A stretch of DNA of 64,000 bases from a virus. The DNA is taken from positions 1 to 64,000 of IMG/VR virus record IMGVR_UViG_3300023174_000036, one strand, 5' to 3'. The position numbers and the translations under genes were made by a program. The notes below the pieces were generated by a model that saw only the letters and a list, made by a program, of their open reading frames with translations, did no database searches and had not been told where the DNA came from. Positions 2,761-45,019 of this stretch are shown one piece after another. The first letter of the stretch is position 1, and the number at the start of each line of letters is the position of its first letter.

Positions 2761-3090
2761 ATGCAACTGCTAATCACTACACAAACACAAGAAAACTACG
2801 GTGCCCACGATTGGGACGGAGTTGGTGAGTGCCCACAGTATTGGAAGTTCAAAGGCGGCCAGGACTACCGGTATGATTTGGGCAAGTTCGGTCGTAGCCA
2901 AGAGGCGCTCACTGAGTTGGTGATGGCCTTGCGTGGCCAGATTGAAGAAGACAATGACTACTACCGCAACCACATCATTGGTTGGGAAGTGGTTGCAGAC
3001 GACTACCTCACTGAGTTCGAACAGAGCCAGTTGGAGTACGAAGGGCGCATTGCCTATCCCGCAACCCGTTTGGAGTTGGAGACTGCATGA
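2761..3090 (+). CDS. Conserved phage hypothetical protein (109 aa)
   Basis: ATG at 2761 after GGAGCGAA (2749-2756). The N-terminus, MQLLITTQTQENYGAHDW then GECPQYWKFKGG, is of a type I associate with conserved hypothetical proteins of large phages. No catalytic motif is evident. The C-terminal half is acidic and helical (LTELVMALRGQIEEDNDYY). Its stop overlaps the next start as ATGA. Confidence 0.6.
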   Translation: MQLLITTQTQENYGAHDWDGVGECPQYWKFKGGQDYRYDLGKFGRSQEALTELVMALRGQIEEDNDYYRNHIIGWEVVADDYLTEFEQSQLEYEGRIAYPATRLELETA

Positions 3091-5356: not shown

Positions 5357-5779
5357 ATGCCAACACCCATATTACCCACCAAAACACAACTAGCTGGACT
5401 GCAATTCACACCCAAACAGCTGGTAGCAGACAAAACCGTTGAAGAGTATCTCACCATTACCAACAACTATGATTTCATACTCAAACTCATAGCCCAATAC
5501 AGAAGCGGAGCCAGAGCGTCATGGGCGGGTACTGGTGTAACTCCAGATGCATCCACTTATACTGAATTTGTTTATTTTTGTGATCTCCCCACATTGAATC
5601 TATTGATTGAGTATCTCACCAATGTAGACTATGGTTATGGCTATGTTGTGAAAGTGGCCAAAACTTCAGTTGGTTGGGAAACCAGAACCACTGCTATCTC
5701 CGTCACACCCAGTGACAGTTACATACTGCCCACTGGCAACAACGCAGGCAAATACGCACTGTTGGTATCTTGGGCTTAA
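5357..5779 (+). CDS. Hypothetical late protein (140 aa)
   Basis: ATG at 5357 is preceded by AGAGGATCC and a late-promoter box, so expression is probably late. The product begins MPTPILPTKTQLAGLQFTP. It reads like a small virion or accessory protein with beta-strand-forming stretches (VYFCDLPTLNLLIEYL, YVVKVAKTSVGWETRT). No family recognised. It stands alone between the early region and the pqqA-like gene. Confidence 0.6.
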   Translation: MPTPILPTKTQLAGLQFTPKQLVADKTVEEYLTITNNYDFILKLIAQYRSGARASWAGTGVTPDASTYTEFVYFCDLPTLNLLIEYLTNVDYGYGYVVKVAKTSVGWETRTTAISVTPSDSYILPTGNNAGKYALLVSWA

Positions 5780-5833: not shown

Positions 5834-5858
5834 AAAATGGGCCCTAAAGACCCATTTT
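5834..5858 (-). terminator. Terminator downstream of pqqA-like gene
   Basis: AAAATGGG (5834-5841) and CCCATTTT (5851-5858) form an 8-bp stem with a 9-nt loop. On the minus strand the stem runs into TTTTTTG, so it fits termination of leftward transcripts from the pqqA-like gene; it may also act on the rightward gene ending at 5779. Confidence 0.7.
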
Positions 5859-5873
5859 GGTTGTTACTGTGCG

Positions 5874-5945
5874 TTAACGATTCATCACATACATGGTAAT
5901 TTCAAAGCCAAATCGCATTTCTTGTGCTGTTGGTTTAGTCCACAT
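5874..5945 (-). CDS. pqqA: PQQ precursor peptide PqqA-like
   Basis: A 23-codon gene on the minus strand with a strong AGGAGG site 9 bp before its ATG. The peptide begins MWTKP, contains MRFGFEITMY and ends MNR. Length, N-terminus and spacing match classical PqqA peptides (23 residues, e.g. MWKKP...GLEVTLY...NR). Glu15 and Tyr19 fall exactly at the positions that PqqE and the later enzymes cross-link and convert into pyrroloquinoline quinone, and FGFE-x-T-x-Y is the family hallmark. No pqqB-F genes are visible, so the peptide would feed host enzymes. A hairpin terminator follows. No clear promoter was found in the 120-bp leader. Confidence 0.85.
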   Translation of the reverse strand: MWTKPTAQEMRFGFEITMYVMNR

Positions 5946-6065
5946 GGTAGTTCCTCCTGGTTGATTACGGTTGTACATACTGTTCTTACACTAGTATGTA
6001 TCCGTATAGTAGCACGTATTCACCATGGAACACATAGTGAAAATCATTGATTCACCATAGTGATA

Positions 6066-7381: not shown

Positions 7382-7921
7382 ATGACTTTAATAGAATTTC
7401 CGCTTGAAAAATTCATCAACGCTTACCAGTTCAACGGGTCAGAAACCAATGCTGAACTGATAAGATTAATACGCGAGGACGGCGGCAAATTAAGTCAGCA
7501 AACTGTGGTCAAAGCCTACATGACTGATTGGCGCTTGACCATGGATCATCAAAGTCCGTTACTGGATCCTTTCTTCAAGTTTCTCAATGAAGGGTTGTCC
7601 CACAGTATAGCCAGCCTTGCAGGTGTTACCAAAGATCCTTTCAAATATCGCATTGCCAACATTTGGGGAGCAATATACAGCAAGGATGACCACACTGAAG
7701 CACACAGTCACGCACCTTGTCAAATGAGTTTTGTGTACTATGTTCAAGCAGATGACTCAGTATCTGCTCCATTGATATTTCCTGAAATTGAACACACAGT
7801 GATACCCAGCACTGGCATGCTGGTCATATGCCCAGGTTGGCTTACCCATTATGTGCCCAAGTACAATCCAGTCACTGGGCAAGAACGCATAGTTATTGCA
7901 GGCAATATAGAACTACAATGA
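7382..7921 (+). CDS. 2OG-Fe(II) oxygenase-like protein (TIGR02466-type), copy 1
   Basis: The 179-residue product has the pattern of the putative 2OG-Fe(II) oxygenase family common in marine phages. Possible iron ligands are H108/H110 in the EAHSHAP segment and H156 in WLTHYVP, and the probable 2-oxoglutarate-binding Arg is R169 in the ERIVIAGNIE strand. These enzymes hydroxylate proteins or small molecules with Fe(II), O2 and 2-oxoglutarate; the substrate is unknown. The stop overlaps the next start (ATGA), and the next gene is a paralogue, so the two arose by tandem duplication. Confidence 0.65.
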   Translation: MTLIEFPLEKFINAYQFNGSETNAELIRLIREDGGKLSQQTVVKAYMTDWRLTMDHQSPLLDPFFKFLNEGLSHSIASLAGVTKDPFKYRIANIWGAIYSKDDHTEAHSHAPCQMSFVYYVQADDSVSAPLIFPEIEHTVIPSTGMLVICPGWLTHYVPKYNPVTGQERIVIAGNIELQ

Positions 7922-8475
7922 TAGACAGCACAGCACCAATCAGTTTTAACCTTGGACGATTTGTAAACACATACCAGTTCAGTGATTCTGAAACAATTCA
8001 AGCACTGATAGACACAATTAGGGCAGAAGCTGTGCGTGGCCAAAGACCCAGTAATGTACAGGCTTTGGTCACATGGAATCTTTACAACATTGATCACAAT
8101 GCCCAACCACAGGATAGATTTTTTACTTTTTTAAAAACCAGCCTTGAACACAGTTGGTCCAACTTGCTGTGTGATAACAAGGGCAGTGAATCAGTCAACT
8201 TTCGTATCAGCAGTATGTGGGGAGCAATTTATCAGCCAGGCGATTGGGCAGATTATCACACACACGGGCCCAGCAGAACCAGTTGGGTATATTATTTGCA
8301 AGCTGATCCTACTCAGGGTGCTCCTTTGGTTTTTGATAATACTGGTTATGAAATAATGCCCACCACTGGACAATTGATCATGTTCCCCAGCTGGTTGGGG
8401 CACAGTGTTCCCAAATTTATGCCCAAAGATGCCAGTGAACGCATTGTGCTGGCTGGCAATGTGGAAATACAATGA
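7918..8475 (+). CDS. 2OG-Fe(II) oxygenase-like protein (TIGR02466-type), copy 2
   Basis: The start at 7918 (ATGA overlap with copy 1) is preferred over an upstream in-frame ATG inside copy 1. The 185-residue product is clearly homologous to copy 1. It shares F-x-NTYQF-x-x-SET near the start, then MWGAIYQPGDWADYHTHGP, WVYYLQAD and WLGHSVPK...ERIVLAGNVEIQ. The candidate iron ligands (HTH and GHSVP) and terminal Arg are kept, so both copies may be active. Substrate unknown; T4-like marine phages often carry several such genes. Confidence 0.65.
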   Translation: MIDSTAPISFNLGRFVNTYQFSDSETIQALIDTIRAEAVRGQRPSNVQALVTWNLYNIDHNAQPQDRFFTFLKTSLEHSWSNLLCDNKGSESVNFRISSMWGAIYQPGDWADYHTHGPSRTSWVYYLQADPTQGAPLVFDNTGYEIMPTTGQLIMFPSWLGHSVPKFMPKDASERIVLAGNVEIQ

Positions 8476-10524: not shown

Positions 10525-11472
10525 TTAAATTTTAATTGCAATGTGTTTGACAGGAGCCCATCGATATTTCCACTCTCTTTGCTTGGTATGATACAGCACT
10601 GAACCAATTGCACTACTAGGATCTCCGGGATTAGGTAGGCTCCAACAGTACTTAAATCTTGGCTCTACAAACTTTTTATTAGCTGTACTATTCATAGCAC
10701 ATCCGCCCATGTAAACTAAACTATCTGTATCAATTAGTTGTTTAGCTTTGAGCATAACAGCTGATACTTGATCTTCAAACACCTGTTGTACTGCGGCCGC
10801 AATGTCGCATTGATCTTGCAAATTATTAATAGGATAGGGCCAATCTAAAACACCTCTATGTAAGTTACGGGTTAAATTAACTGTGTAATCTATATAACTT
10901 TTAACCTCGGGCAAATATCTTTTGGGGTCACCTTGTTCTGACATTTGTTGTAGCAAATATTCTTGCTTGATTGGTTCTAATCCTATCAGTTGTGTAAACG
11001 CACTATAGAATAATCCTAGACTATGTGGATAACTTCTGCTCCACACTTTTTTTATTTCACCGTGTAGCCCTTCCCAGATAGTTGCACACTCAAACTCTCC
11101 TATTGCATCGAGGACGACAATAGCACAATGATTAAAAGGACTAGTATAGTAACCGGCGGCAGCATGACTTGCATGATGCGGCGTATAAGTGATTGGTGCA
11201 TAGTGTAACCTTATATTATTTAAATATCTTTTAGGTAATACTGACAAATCCATTGCTGTTTTATATTGACCAGCATACACTTGTCTAGCTTTCTTAACCC
11301 AAGGTCTTTCATACCAAAATAATCTATCCGGAGCTCCTTGGTGCAATGCTTCGGTTATTATAGATGTATCAAACTCATCGTCTTTACAAGTAGTCCACGA
11401 AATAAGTGCGCCGTCCTTAAATACGGCTAGACTTGACCCGTGATTAAGAGCGTTTATCCCCCACTGTATCAT
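10525..11472 (-). CDS. Carbamoyltransferase N-terminal-domain protein (NodU/TobZ-like), short form
   Basis: The 315-residue product contains the ASKHA-type N-terminal domain of NodU/CmcH carbamoyltransferases. It shows GINALNHGSSLAVFKDGALISW at the start, then the H-x-x-x-H pattern in PHHASHAAAGYYTSPF, and LVYMGGCAMNSTANKKF. It stops before the C-terminal YrdC-like domain that the 568-residue protein at 48429 has. It may make or bind carbamoyl-adenylate only, or be a degenerate partner. It overlaps the 11469 gene by ATGA and sits between primase and helicase genes, an odd place for an O-carbamoylation enzyme. Confidence 0.75.
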   Translation of the reverse strand: MIQWGINALNHGSSLAVFKDGALISWTTCKDDEFDTSIITEALHQGAPDRLFWYERPWVKKARQVYAGQYKTAMDLSVLPKRYLNNIRLHYAPITYTPHHASHAAAGYYTSPFNHCAIVVLDAIGEFECATIWEGLHGEIKKVWSRSYPHSLGLFYSAFTQLIGLEPIKQEYLLQQMSEQGDPKRYLPEVKSYIDYTVNLTRNLHRGVLDWPYPINNLQDQCDIAAAVQQVFEDQVSAVMLKAKQLIDTDSLVYMGGCAMNSTANKKFVEPRFKYCWSLPNPGDPSSAIGSVLYHTKQREWKYRWAPVKHIAIKI

Positions 11473-15492: not shown

Positions 15493-15773
15493 AGCGGTTT
15501 ATCCTTACTAAGCCTATATATCATTATAGCACGGTCTAATGCTTTTTGTAAAGCGGGATTGGTCTTTGCTTCTCGCCGAATCTCTCCCCACAGCTTATCT
15601 TCCATTATATGTTCGCGCAATGGTCGACCATCATTTGTGCGAGGATCAGGTTTATCTTCCATTTCGTACTTATAACCAATTAGTTTGCGTTCCGTGGCAC
15701 CAAACTCTCGGGCATATACTTCATCACCGTTGCGTTCGTAAATGTAAGTAGCACCAGGTTTAAGACTGCCCAT
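15489..15773 (-). CDS. Conserved hypothetical protein (94 aa)
   Basis: The start at 15773 (MGSLKPGATYIYERNGDEVYAR) is chosen because GAGGA lies 9-13 nt upstream; a GTG at 15788 would add five residues. It overlaps the upstream 2OG-like gene by 14 bp and couples to the downstream gene by ATGA. The product has an early beta segment, a DPRTNDGRPLREHIMEDKLW middle and a terminal helix ALQKALDRAIMIYRLSK. I associate this architecture with T4-like marine phages, but no function is known to me. Confidence 0.6.
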   Translation of the reverse strand: MGSLKPGATYIYERNGDEVYAREFGATERKLIGYKYEMEDKPDPRTNDGRPLREHIMEDKLWGEIRREAKTNPALQKALDRAIMIYRLSKDKPL

Positions 15774-16404
15774 CTTGCATATCCTCACGAGGCACTAATA
15801 TTGAATCAAATGCCATAACAGTTCTATGCCCATCACCTTTCCACGGATACACAGTATGCGGAAGATGACTTGGGAATAAGATAAAAGTTCCAGGCTCCGG
15901 CGTGTATTTCCAAGTATCGTTCATTATAAACTTGGTCAAATCTTTGTTTGTAGGCAACCTAAATAAAATTTGACCATCTGAGGGTAGTCTGGCTTCATCG
16001 TAATCCGGCGCACTGATATAAATGTTACCACTTAAATTGCCGGCAGGATGTGTGTGCATTTCTTGATAGTCGCCGGCAGTTTGCCTAATGGTCCAAATGC
16101 TGGTAACTTTGGGTTGACAATATTTTAAATCTTCTACGCCAGATTGTGTGGTAATTAAATCCATATAACCCTGGCATGCTTCTTCTAACCAAGATACAAG
16201 CCACTGTACATCTACATTCAAATTGTTGGGATAAACTTGTATTTGTTGTCCGCCTCGAATACTTAAACCTGCGTTATTTGCATCATTGAGTTCAGGATGC
16301 GAATGTAACATTTCAGAAAGATTAAATATTTTACTAAACTCAACGGGACTTACAGGGCCTGCTACCACAACCGTCGGCACAAAATAAGCTATTTTTAATG
16401 TCAT
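15760..16404 (-). CDS. 2OG-Fe(II) oxygenase-like protein (TIGR02466-type), third copy
   Basis: The 214-residue product carries the same core as the two tandem copies at 7382-8475. It has VTSIWTIRQTAGDYQEMHTHPAG with the H-x-H ligands, IYISAPDYDEARLPSDGQILF, then TFILFPSHLPHTVYPW with the distal His and HRTVMAFDSI with the Arg. It is more diverged from those two than they are from each other. It probably hydroxylates an unknown substrate. It is embedded in the leftward replication run and coupled to the 16401 gene by ATGA. Confidence 0.7.
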   Translation of the reverse strand: MTLKIAYFVPTVVVAGPVSPVEFSKIFNLSEMLHSHPELNDANNAGLSIRGGQQIQVYPNNLNVDVQWLVSWLEEACQGYMDLITTQSGVEDLKYCQPKVTSIWTIRQTAGDYQEMHTHPAGNLSGNIYISAPDYDEARLPSDGQILFRLPTNKDLTKFIMNDTWKYTPEPGTFILFPSHLPHTVYPWKGDGHRTVMAFDSILVPREDMQDGQS

Positions 16405-26802: not shown

Positions 26803-26809
26803 TATTTAT
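26803..26809 (-). promoter_or_regulatory. T4-type late promoter box, 4 nt from start codon
   Basis: ATAAATA on the minus strand, then TATC, then the ATG of the 897-aa gene. It overlaps the end of the terminase gene. Confidence 0.65.
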
Positions 26810-28404
26810 CCTATGCCTGAGGAAATGAATATAGGCAATGGTGCGTCCCATTCTTCGCCAAATTCTGTGTTTACACTTAGGGTTTCAAATACCCGAGGAT
26901 CCCAATCTGCCAGCACCACGCTCATGCGGATTATCAGCAATAATGCACTTACCAAGTCATCATTTTGCCCAGATTTGGCTTTGAAACTGGTACCCGATGC
27001 AACAAAACTCTTTAGTTCACTGATTAGTCCTTTGCTGAGAATCCGCATTTTGTTTCCTTCAATAAGGAATTTTAATCGGGCACACGCTGATATTTTGTTA
27101 CCAAAGGTAGTGTTAAATCCCTTACGGAATTTCCTTACATGACCTTTCTTTACTGGCTCGCTGACAAACAATCCAGGAAATGTATCCTCGCCCATGTCTT
27201 TAATAACTACCAGAGCCGCTTCGCCTAGCGTGTTGTTTTCACAAGACCAGTAAATGCTGTTGGGATAACCTGGACCAATCTTTTCTTCTAAATTCTTTAG
27301 TATATCTCTAAATATTTTCACTTGATCTTGCACAATGGTCAAGTTATGTTGCCATTCTGCTACTTGGGTAAAACTGGGTAATTCAAACACTTGTATTGCC
27401 GCATAATCTCCGCCTGTGCCCAAACTAGGGTCTAATGCCGCCAAATACAAGTTTCCGCCTACTGGCTGTTTGTACCATCTAACTTGTCCCATTTTTTCAA
27501 CAGGATCTCGGCCCAGCAACTCTGCCAGTTTTAATGAACTGATTAAGGTTTCATCATATACTAAAAATTCGCAACCGTACTCACGCCGGAATCGCTCTTC
27601 TCCAATACGTCCCAGTTCTACACGTTTCCATTCATCGTCTCGATCTGGATGCTCATTCCATTCTGCACGGAATCCGTGGAATCCATTACGCCCTAATCCG
27701 TCTGTACGTACATCGCCATATTCGTCAAATGTGTCCTGACTCTCTTTCCAAATGATGGCAAATTCGTCTTCGTCACTGTTGGGCGTTGAAGTGATAATTG
27801 CTCGACCACCAGTTGCTAGTGTCGGGGAAATTGAAGTCCAAAACTCAGTGGCGATATTTGGCTGTACGAAAGCAAACTCATCGCAATATAGTAAGGATAT
27901 GGACATACCACGACCGGTATTACCAGTAGTAGTAGCTGATACAATTCTTGAGCCGTTGTCAAAGTCTATACTCCCTTTGTTGTAGCTGACCACACCACAT
28001 CGGATATGGTCAGCACATAGTTCGTATCCATAGCGGATACGTTGCATAATTTCCTGTGCACCTGTGTATTTGTGTGCGGCAACTAGAATAGTCTGATCTG
28101 GATGAAACATTGCAAACCATAACAGGTAACTGGAGGCGCATGTTGTTTTACCACTCTGACGCGGTAGCATGTTAATGTTGAATCGAAAATCGTGATAACT
28201 GTGTAATAGCCGCTCTTGATATTCAAACGGCTGGAACAACATCTTGCCTTTGACGGGATGTTGTATGTGAAAATGATTGCGAGAAAAATGCAAGTAGCCG
28301 TTGGTTGGATCTGAGCAAGCTAATAAATCTACAACTTGATCTTCCGTGAATTTTTCTCGGGTATGTGCTTTCTTGGTGATTACACCATCTAAACTTTTTG
28401 CCAT
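26806..28404 (-). CDS. gp17: Terminase large subunit (T4 gp17-like)
   Basis: The 532-residue product has the terminase ATPase Walker A PRQSGKTT (81-88) and Walker B LLYCDEFAF. The coupling motif is TSTPNSDEDEF, and the C-terminal RNase-H-like nuclease has LAALDPSLGTGGDYAAIQV and GQNDDLVSALLLI with the metal-binding Asp residues. It pumps DNA into the prohead and cuts concatemers at packaging start and end. Length is close to T4 gp17 (610). Start at 28404 is 4 nt after a GTAAATA late-like box. Confidence 0.95.
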   Translation of the reverse strand: MAKSLDGVITKKAHTREKFTEDQVVDLLACSDPTNGYLHFSRNHFHIQHPVKGKMLFQPFEYQERLLHSYHDFRFNINMLPRQSGKTTCASSYLLWFAMFHPDQTILVAAHKYTGAQEIMQRIRYGYELCADHIRCGVVSYNKGSIDFDNGSRIVSATTTGNTGRGMSISLLYCDEFAFVQPNIATEFWTSISPTLATGGRAIITSTPNSDEDEFAIIWKESQDTFDEYGDVRTDGLGRNGFHGFRAEWNEHPDRDDEWKRVELGRIGEERFRREYGCEFLVYDETLISSLKLAELLGRDPVEKMGQVRWYKQPVGGNLYLAALDPSLGTGGDYAAIQVFELPSFTQVAEWQHNLTIVQDQVKIFRDILKNLEEKIGPGYPNSIYWSCENNTLGEAALVVIKDMGEDTFPGLFVSEPVKKGHVRKFRKGFNTTFGNKISACARLKFLIEGNKMRILSKGLISELKSFVASGTSFKAKSGQNDDLVSALLLIIRMSVVLADWDPRVFETLSVNTEFGEEWDAPLPIFISSGIG

Positions 28405-41524: not shown

Positions 41525-44500
41525 TTAAGCCTGCGCTTCACCCCAACGTAGAACCAAGTTACAAGGAATGTTTCCTGAACCTGACGCACGGTAAACGTTA
41601 ACAGCTAGCACGTCTGGACCATTAGGATATGCACCTCGTCCGCCTAACACTGTATTTGTAAGTTCTTTCAATCCACTTAGATCCAATACGCTTTGTGTTC
41701 CTGGCGCCGCAATGAACGAGAAAACCTGCTCACCCGGTTGCGCATATGGTGGTTGTCCAAATTTGAACGTAACCGTTGTACTTGCAGGAGTAATTGTAGT
41801 AGCATCCGATGATTGGTTAAATGTCACACGATAATACTGTGTACCAAAATATGTTACCAATGATGCAGTATTAACATAGGTACTACCTGGGAATATACCG
41901 CCTTGGTTGACCTCGGTACCCACCGTAGCATTAGTTGCTTCCCAACTTGCTTTTTGGAAGAAGATCTGTGATGTTCTTGTAACTGGATAACTGTTAGTTA
42001 CCGTACAAGTGCTAACACCCGATGTTGCGCCTGTGGCATTTCTACTCATTGTTATGTAATAATACTGAACGCTGTTGAATGTTCCGTAGAAAGTAATAGC
42101 ACTGATTACTGTGTTTGCTGGAATAAAACCACCAGTTTGAGCACTGAGTGCCTGACCAGTTTGCAAACCGTTGGCAATATAAGTGGCATAGTTTGCGGCT
42201 GTAATAAACAAGTTAGGATAATTGCTCAGTGTTGAACTTGACTGTCCAGGGATAATTTCAAGAGCTAGCGTACCTGTTGGAAACGCCGCTGTTGTAATGG
42301 CACTTGTGGTTTGACTTGCGCCGCCTGCCCATACCACTGAACCACCGGAAGCAACTTGTGAGAAACTAGGCAATCCGCCAGCACCTGAAGTTTGTAGTCC
42401 GTTCCAAGTGATATCAGTAACGTTGGTTGGATAATTTTGTGGATTTAATACACCTTCAATAATCAATCCGCCAGTACCAGTGTCAGCTGTAATTTCAAGA
42501 GCTTGTAATAGTAACTGCGCACGATTCAACAGGTCTCTGTCGCCCAAATCACCAATTAGTGAGTTACTTACACTTGGTGCAAGACGAATCAAGAAAGCTG
42601 TTTGTTTGGTAGTAGTTACTTGCAAGTTTGTGCTTTGATAGTTAAACAAGTAGCCGCGATCTGAGTCAAATCCGCCGTCTTGTAAAAAGGCCGAACCCCA
42701 ATGACTGATGTTAGGTGTAGCTGTTTGACTGCAAAACAACACACCTGTGGTAGCAGTATGAGTAGCGGCCGCGCCTGCTGTGAATGTGCGTTGACTACCA
42801 GCAGTGTATATTGACAAATTGGTTGCTCTCACTGCACCTGTTAAATTACCAGCACCTGTTGTGGTGCTCTTGCCAGTGTAGGCAATCAATTCGTTATCAA
42901 TATAAACTGTTCCAGCTGTTGGGAACAGTGTTAGGTCTGCCACTGGAATTGTGTTTGCCACAGCATCAATAGTTGCTGTCAACTGACTTCTTGCGCCTTC
43001 ATTCAGCACTTCATAACGAACTGGACTGTTACCTGAACGCTGATATGCTTCTCTGTTTACGTTGTTGCCTTTGAGTCTGTGTACAAATATGTACTTGCCT
43101 TCTGGACCTCTTAGCATAAAATCAATAAATCCAGCGCCATACCAAGTCCATTGCAAGCCAATCATCTGCATTCTACCAGGTAAGATATTGAAACCGCTTG
43201 GATTGAATGGGCCGTTAGATCCGTCGCAACGGTCAATGTTCCACTTACTTTGTGGCACTATATAATCAATGGTCTTTGCAATCTTAATACCCAATGCAGT
43301 ATTAACACCGCGATAGTCTGGGCTCATGGTCAAACTGGTGTCGTTTGTAATACCAGTAACAATGTGTGTCATTCCGCGAATAACAATACGATCACCCACT
43401 GTCAACTGACTGGTAAATCGTGTGTTCACTCCGTTTAATAAATTACTGTCTGGAATTGCTGTTACGTTACCAGATATTTGGAATGTGCTTGAACGTTTGC
43501 CAACGGCCATGGTCTGGCCGTCATACTGCCAAAACTGTCCATTTTGATCATCAAATGTGCCTGCACGAACAACAGAGCCTGTCCATCTTTCAACAACCAC
43601 AAAACTTGGGCCGTCTAATGCCGCAGTGGTTCCGCCAAGTACGCTTTTGGCAGTTACCGTAAATGTACGTTCATCAACAATAGTGGCCACAGTGTATGTG
43701 TCCATGTAGCCTGAAGTGAATATGCCCCACAAGCTGATAGTTGCACCCACTTGAAGATTATGATCAACATCATCTGTAGTTACGGTAATAGTACTGCCAA
43801 TTGTGGTGCCGCTTGCAGTAACCAGTTTTAAATCATAGTTTGGTGCAAACAACGCACCGGTGTTGTAGTTAATGGCCTTACCAGATTGGTAACGAATATA
43901 TTTCTTGCTCATACGAATTGCCTGAGCACCGTATGCTGGACTACCTGTGCTTAAAATAACGCCGCCGTCAAGTGGACGATGCTGATAGAACGCATCTGGA
44001 CGAGCATAAACTACACCACCAAGTGTGCCAGTAATCACGGCAGCGGCTCTACTTGTGTAAGTAAATGTTGTAGGTGTTGGCACTGATTCAATAAAATATG
44101 GGCCGCCTGCAACTTTGTGATTTTGTGTGTCGCCTGCATCACTGCTGATACTTACTATAATTGTACTGCCAGGAAGTAGTCCATGAGCATTGGGAAAAGT
44201 CACTGTGATAACCGGAGTTGCGGCACCTGAATATGCAAATGACGGTGCACTGATTGATGCACCAGTATAAAAGCCGCCTTTACGCAATTGAATATATGAT
44301 GTGTACAGTGTGTCGCCACTGTTACCCACTGCGGCTTTTGCATAGTAGGTGAAGCTACTGGTTGACGGTGTTGAGAAAATAGTAAACGATCCTTCTGCGC
44401 GGCTAAATCCTGTAACGCCTGTGCTGAGACCTTTGATAGTGAATGGTTGTCCAACTACCATACTGTGCAGTGAACTTGTGGTCACTGTGATTAAACTTGC

Positions 44501-45019
44501 ACCAGTAGCGCCGTTGGTTGTGATGGCACTAACTGTCATGTCAGTGCCAGGAATTTCATAGATGCTTGGATAGCCACGAAGCATACTGACTGCTTGCCAT
44601 TTGGTACCTTGCAATCCGTATTCAAAGTCAGCGTCTAGCATGGAGTAAGGCTGTGAAACACGAGTACGTTCAAACGCATCTGTACCCATTTCCCAAGGAC
44701 GCACTGTTTGTATTGGCTCTTCGCGGAAAATTTGGATAGCGTCGTTGGCGCTGTGTCCTACACTGCTTACTGCAAGAGTAATTGTTGTGATACCGTCTGT
44801 GTTATCCAACACTGTTGTAAAGTTGCTATCATTGGCTCGACTGAAGCTGATTGCAGTATTGGCGTTGGTTGTGTCGGCAAAATTGTAATAAATTATGTTT
44901 CGTGTGGTATTGGTAATAATTAACAGTTGATTTAAATCAACTTTACCTGGTACCTTAATCGTGCCTACACCTGCCGCGCCTGGCGTAAAAACATATTGTC
45001 TGATCTGACTTTTAGCCAT
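41525..45019 (-). CDS. Large virion structural protein (1164 aa)
   Basis: The start MAKSQIRQYVFTPGAAGVG then TIKVPGKVDLNQLLIITNTT is one I know from marine T4-like virion structural proteins. The rest is beta-rich. There are repeated VTTSSLHSMVVGQPFTIKGL-like and VTFPNAHGLLPGSTIIVSIS-like units (each about 80-90 residues, with a G-x-x-I/F-x-V-x-G pattern). A globular part with WNIDRCDGSNGPFNPSG and YGAGFIDFMLRGPEG follows. It probably forms part of the baseplate periphery or fibre base. GGAG precedes the ATG. Confidence 0.65.
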   Translation of the reverse strand: MAKSQIRQYVFTPGAAGVGTIKVPGKVDLNQLLIITNTTRNIIYYNFADTTNANTAISFSRANDSNFTTVLDNTDGITTITLAVSSVGHSANDAIQIFREEPIQTVRPWEMGTDAFERTRVSQPYSMLDADFEYGLQGTKWQAVSMLRGYPSIYEIPGTDMTVSAITTNGATGASLITVTTSSLHSMVVGQPFTIKGLSTGVTGFSRAEGSFTIFSTPSTSSFTYYAKAAVGNSGDTLYTSYIQLRKGGFYTGASISAPSFAYSGAATPVITVTFPNAHGLLPGSTIIVSISSDAGDTQNHKVAGGPYFIESVPTPTTFTYTSRAAAVITGTLGGVVYARPDAFYQHRPLDGGVILSTGSPAYGAQAIRMSKKYIRYQSGKAINYNTGALFAPNYDLKLVTASGTTIGSTITVTTDDVDHNLQVGATISLWGIFTSGYMDTYTVATIVDERTFTVTAKSVLGGTTAALDGPSFVVVERWTGSVVRAGTFDDQNGQFWQYDGQTMAVGKRSSTFQISGNVTAIPDSNLLNGVNTRFTSQLTVGDRIVIRGMTHIVTGITNDTSLTMSPDYRGVNTALGIKIAKTIDYIVPQSKWNIDRCDGSNGPFNPSGFNILPGRMQMIGLQWTWYGAGFIDFMLRGPEGKYIFVHRLKGNNVNREAYQRSGNSPVRYEVLNEGARSQLTATIDAVANTIPVADLTLFPTAGTVYIDNELIAYTGKSTTTGAGNLTGAVRATNLSIYTAGSQRTFTAGAAATHTATTGVLFCSQTATPNISHWGSAFLQDGGFDSDRGYLFNYQSTNLQVTTTKQTAFLIRLAPSVSNSLIGDLGDRDLLNRAQLLLQALEITADTGTGGLIIEGVLNPQNYPTNVTDITWNGLQTSGAGGLPSFSQVASGGSVVWAGGASQTTSAITTAAFPTGTLALEIIPGQSSSTLSNYPNLFITAANYATYIANGLQTGQALSAQTGGFIPANTVISAITFYGTFNSVQYYYITMSRNATGATSGVSTCTVTNSYPVTRTSQIFFQKASWEATNATVGTEVNQGGIFPGSTYVNTASLVTYFGTQYYRVTFNQSSDATTITPASTTVTFKFGQPPYAQPGEQVFSFIAAPGTQSVLDLSGLKELTNTVLGGRGAYPNGPDVLAVNVYRASGSGNIPCNLVLRWGEAQA

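Follow-up and report, generated by a model that had tools for sequence, protein, structure and literature searches.

An orphan pqqA gene in a jumbo phage and its distribution among phages of Methylophilaceae

PqqA in described viruses and in the jumbo phage

That phages can carry pqqA, the gene for the precursor peptide of PQQ, is already known as a principle from viruses of Lake Baikal, which are predicted to infect Methylophilaceae and for which PqqA and methanol dehydrogenase were described in 2020 (PMC7678222). Viral pqqA is furthermore among the auxiliary genes listed in a reservoir study (PMC13188868). The Baikal virus population VP_266 resembles the jumbo phage described here in that it is a predicted Methylophilaceae virus with PqqA, proposed to support methanol dehydrogenase (PMC7678222); however, VP_266 also encodes methanol dehydrogenase, whereas no PQQ-dehydrogenase propeller was found in the 356-kb record of the jumbo phage. 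In known producers PqqA has a length of 23-39 residues, and the atoms of PQQ originate from its Glu and Tyr, of which the exchanges Glu to Asp or Tyr to Phe abolish PQQ in Acinetobacter (PMC2294125). Methylophilaceae harbor several pqqA genes, usually together with a single set of the remaining pqq genes (PMC4109929), as was also counted here, with a median of three pqqA copies per genome, two or more in 171 of 187 genomes, and a maximum of 12.

The record IMGVR_UViG_3300023174_000036 represents a tailed jumbo phage of 356,312 bases. Its first 64,000 nucleotides, named the window in the following, encode the terminase large subunit (26806-28404), a virion protein (41525-45019), UvsX, UvsY, a single-stranded DNA-binding protein, a primase, and a DnaB-like helicase whose closest counterparts are found in Agrobacterium phage Atu_ph07 and in Pseudomonas phages including PA5oct. 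The helicase gene is adjoined by a gene for a Nol-like carbamoyltransferase (10525-11472, minus strand; PF02543, phrog_1601), and three 2OG-Fe(II) oxygenases of phrog_81 are encoded at 7382-7921 (+), 7828-8475 (+) and 15760-16404 (-), the first two of which are overlapping neighbours. Within this bona fide phage genome, pqqA is a metabolic gene of host type and can be counted among the auxiliary genes.

The gene is located on the minus strand (5874-5945) and encodes, in 23 codons, the PQQ precursor peptide MWTKPTAQEMRFGFEITMYVMNR. The peptide reaches 37.9 bits against TIGR02107, which is an equivalog model (cutoff 20, E = 1.1e-9, profile positions 1-21 of 21), and 39.5 bits against PF08042 (cutoff 21.1, E = 5.1e-10, profile positions 1-19 of 19); both curated cutoffs are therefore exceeded nearly twofold with the full profiles covered. 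The original prediction of a minus-strand gene with a classical PqqA of this length, an FGFE-x-T-x-Y core and an NR end is borne out by the translation, which gives 23 residues, a size within the range of known producers, with the core FGFEITMY and NR at the C-terminus, and the Shine-Dalgarno sequence AGGAGG (5953-5958, minus strand) is indeed present 7 nt before the ATG. Codons 15-19 (5889-5903, minus strand) read E-I-T-M-Y, and Glu15 and Tyr19, the residues that become PQQ, thus occupy the expected positions of the E-x-x-x-Y motif. In the whole 356-kb record the PqqA profile search gives this gene as the sole match (E = 1.8e-9), and the PqqA model matched none of 14 control genomes. PHROG holds no entry for PqqA, and no sequence match with a solved structure was obtained for the phage peptide. 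Short frames are common, and a 23-codon frame might be regarded as a product of chance; the E values of about 1e-9 against two curated models and the absence of the PqqA pattern from 100 shuffles of the window, however, leave this explanation a negligible probability, and it was rejected. As judged from its sequence, 5874-5945 is confirmed as a true, full-length pqqA.

Downstream of the pqqA stop, between the gene and the convergent ORF 5357-5779 (+), an 11-bp hairpin AAAATGGGTCT-TTA-GGGCCCATTTT followed by TT is predicted (5834-5858, minus strand), one arm of which is T-rich. Its folding energy is -17.4 kcal/mol (z = -2.2, with 6 of 200 shuffles equally stable), and it is probably a terminator, possibly a bidirectional one; a scan for consensus terminators did not flag it. 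Upstream, a gap of 120 nt (5946-6065, minus strand) is the place where a promoter of its own would be expected, and a promoter scan found no sigma-70 consensus there.

No further pqq gene had been seen in the window, and this holds for the whole record as tested. PqqB and PqqD were not found in the 356 kb, and none of its ten radical SAM proteins is a PqqE (best TIGR02109 score 21.9 bits, cutoff 381). PqqC had no match in the record either, in a weak search whose HMM control itself matched nowhere, and tblastn with Acinetobacter PqqB-E against the record yielded only a 22% radical-SAM-like stretch. Hence pqqB-E were found neither beside pqqA nor elsewhere in the genome, with the PqqC part weakly controlled. 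The radical SAM proteins, which were rejected as PqqE candidates, comprise four full-length twitch-domain proteins (NF033640), several viperin/MoaA-like proteins, a KedN5-like protein of the B12 type and a QueE-like protein. Ten such proteins in one phage are an unusual density; their genes are located outside the window, at 140, 217-221, 235-250 and 266-268 kb of the record.

Orphan pqqA among jumbo relatives and unrelated phages

Among 50 records with a related helicase, pqqA was detected in two, a 26-kb contig and a 357.6-kb record, and 48 had no match, which indicates that the gene is not essential to the jumbo lineage, although most of these records are fragments. Further pqqA-bearing contigs encode proteins that share as much as 96% identity with their counterparts in this phage. 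At least six different neighbourhoods of pqqA were found across the jumbo relatives, and the neighbouring genes map to widely differing parts of this genome. Whereas the gene lies at about 6 kb in this phage, its surroundings are equivalent to 349-350 and 298 kb of this genome in contig L118, to 348 and 8.5 kb in L021, to 277 kb in L109, to 261 kb in L004, L049 and L034, to 79 kb in L108 and the 357.6-kb record, and to 21.7 kb in L036 and L393. In the relative L151, moreover, flanking sequences that match about 5098 and 7065 are retained with a similar distance between them, and PqqA was not found in that record. A single ancestral position of pqqA in the jumbo lineage was therefore rejected. 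With the mosaic gene order of these phages, rearrangement rather than new capture may account for some of the varied neighbourhoods.

Outside the jumbo lineage, tblastn with the phage PqqA against 50,697 phage records gave 12 matches. Nine of these are records of Methylophilales/Methylophilaceae phages, namely Venkman, P19250A, MEP301, MEP401, MEP402 and four Melnitz variants, and the tenth is an environmental podovirus from a spring. The remaining two, both designated "Acinetobacter phage MD-2021a", were set aside as bacterial: the one that was inspected, CAKLQF020000010.1, contains a bacterial ppk and a pqqBCD-radical SAM region beside pqqA, and CAKLQH020000055.1 has the same PqqA peptide match. 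Thus, all host-assigned phages with an orphan pqqA in this collection infect Methylophilales/Methylophilaceae. A Pseudomonas PqqA used as query against the same records retrieves the same set, and phages of other PQQ-making hosts in the collection, e.g., Pseudomonas or Acinetobacter, have no detectable pqqA. Venkman, Melnitz, MEP301, MEP401/402 and P19250A, which include complete genomes of cultured phages, each carry one orphan pqqA as the jumbo phage does, but have much smaller genomes and belong to other lineages. None of the ten phage matches is annotated as PqqA; five have no annotation at this place and the others a "hypothetical protein". In both cases inspected, the hypothetical protein covers pqqA on the opposite strand (2961-3056 of the Melnitz locus L228 and 2067-2195 of L231 from MW202481), and these are probably wrong calls that mask a real pqqA.

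The carriers include unrelated lineages, as MEP301, Venkman and MEP402 have TerL proteins without significant alignment to one another, and what MEP301 and MEP402 have in common with other methylophage lineages at the DNA level is for the most part limited to the pqqA of about 75 bp. Pelagiphages of the same collection with a Venkman-related TerL had no PqqA match. The conservation in relatives that had been anticipated is accordingly observed in some jumbo relatives, and additionally in phages that are unrelated but share this host group. In a limited literature search no mention of pqqA in these cultured methylophages was found. What is new here is the jumbo phage as carrier and the breadth, conservation and repeated capture or movement of the gene, and this broader pattern appears to be undescribed.

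In IMG/VR, a degenerate pattern retrieved at least 119 pqqA loci, and a second pattern, which left codons 15-23 free, gave at least 119 copies. Among the matches listed, Glu15, Thr17 and Tyr19 are invariant in 119 of 119 viral copies, at positions that the pattern did not constrain, and hence none shows the substitution at Glu15 or Tyr19 that would have spoken against a precursor function. Many viral PqqA are identical to host PqqA in amino acids, yet the DNA differs between viral copies, and copies with the same peptide likewise differ, e.g., 20 copies of one peptide comprise 19 distinct sequences with a mean of 7.7 differences in 69 bases. These two observations also bear on the idea of a repurposed peptide, which would bind PqqD/PqqE or another host factor and thereby block or redirect the enzymes. 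Competition for binding by orphan PqqA-like peptides is conceivable in principle, but a decoy need not retain both reacting residues, nor is the identity with host PqqA despite differing DNA what would be expected of it, and we regard repurposing as very improbable. Over codons 15-23 of viral pqqA, pN/pS is 0.12; as synonymous sites are near saturation, this value is a sign of purifying selection rather than an exact measure of it. A Shine-Dalgarno-like motif is found in 138 of 145 viral copies, and pqqB-E are nearby in none of 145 viral loci compared with 91 of 120 bacterial loci retrieved with the same pattern.

The ribosome site and the low pN/pS are difficult to reconcile with pqqA as a non-functional passenger, i.e., a fragment recently acquired from the host that is neither expressed nor selected, or contamination of viral contigs with host DNA. 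Many IMG/VR matches do lie on short contigs, and stand-alone pqqA copies also occur in Methylophilaceae themselves; however, the gene is present in complete genomes of cultured phages and shares its contig with terminase, helicase and virion genes in the jumbo phage, which makes a passenger quite improbable. Viral PqqA of other types, e.g., MKWETPKYKDLRFGFEITMYINNR, were observed in L032, L068, L086, L119 and similar loci; they resemble forms of gammaproteobacterial methylotrophs or Burkholderiales, and phages of other PQQ-using hosts may thus also carry pqqA. Altogether, we consider it rather probable that orphan pqqA is near-universal and host-diagnostic in Methylophilaceae phages, with small podo- or siphophage-sized genomes, myophages and jumbo phages among the lineages, and that it has been captured repeatedly by unrelated lineages, is kept under purifying selection and supplies the substrate only.

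Source of the gene and probable host

The phage PqqA is matched by 185 of 187 Methylophilaceae genomes, the best with 87% identity and 41 bits, and in a sample of 399 genomes from the order the Methylophilaceae set provides the highest-scoring ones, while the best other genome reaches 35.1 bits. With Methylophilaceae PqqA it shares the length, W2, P5, R11, G13, F14, E15, T17, Y19, N22 and the ribosome site, and it stands alone as many Methylophilaceae copies do. In contrast to the common Methylophilaceae peptide, it differs at T6, Q8, I16 and R23, and its identity with the closest of the sampled host copies is 87%. That the host is methylotrophic and Methylophilaceae-like, as guessed at first, thus gains support from the nearest cellular PqqA and from the host-assigned orphan carriers. 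On the basis of PqqA alone, a host within the Methylophilaceae is probable rather than proven, since a peptide of 23 residues cannot support a tree.

Proposed role of a substrate-only gene

Each PQQ made consumes one PqqA, whereas the cell already contains PqqB-E, which act as catalysts, so that the supply of PqqA alone, at 72 bases, would be the cheapest way of intervening. It is likely that the phage provides only this consumable substrate to the host PqqB-E and thereby sustains the PQQ-dependent methanol dehydrogenase; we infer expression of the gene, use of the peptide by host enzymes and a benefit to the phage. During infection the phage would make the PqqA peptide, host PqqD/PqqE would bind it and cross-link Glu15 and Tyr19, and a host protease, PqqB and PqqC would complete PQQ. 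In this way, the PQQ-dependent methanol dehydrogenase could remain active, and with it the supply of energy and C1, while host gene expression is shut down. Cyanophage psbA is a comparable case, in which the phage supplies a fast-consumed component of a host energy pathway; however, the psbA product is an enzyme subunit, whereas PqqA is a substrate peptide that is destroyed when the cofactor is made. One PQQ producer grown on methanol has five pqqA copies; its stand-alone copies are transcribed, and one of them is among the two most expressed (PMC9851590). Acetic acid bacteria produced more PQQ when expression of pqqA was increased, either by itself or together with pqqB (PMC7936290 and work cited there).

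Against substrate supply, the several pqqA copies of the host may make substrate limitation doubtful. The same median of three host copies, through which an extra dose may be small, and the lack of a detected PQQ dehydrogenase in this phage would also fit a functional PqqA with another benefit, such as service to other quinoproteins, PQQ release to neighbours, or replacement of lost host pqqA mRNA without more PQQ. This we hold to be unlikely, as the restriction to phages of methylotrophs, to the exclusion of Pseudomonas and Acinetobacter phages in the collection, points to methanol dehydrogenase, which the Baikal methylotroph viruses even encode themselves (PMC7678222).

With substrate supply as the preferred reading, the presence of an unannotated 72-base gene in all nine records of cultured methylophages found by the search (the taxonomy names further Methylophilales phages, e.g., MEP431-434) suggests that the supply of PqqA, and not of the enzymes, can limit PQQ during infection. 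For uncultured phages, pqqA offers a one-gene marker for assigning hosts. The gene would represent a low-cost metabolic takeover, in which the consumed substrate is supplied and the enzymes are borrowed. Methanol oxidation by Methylophilaceae, which is PQQ-dependent, draws on an important carbon source of lakes and oceans; our findings suggest that these viruses keep the methanol metabolism of their hosts running during infection.
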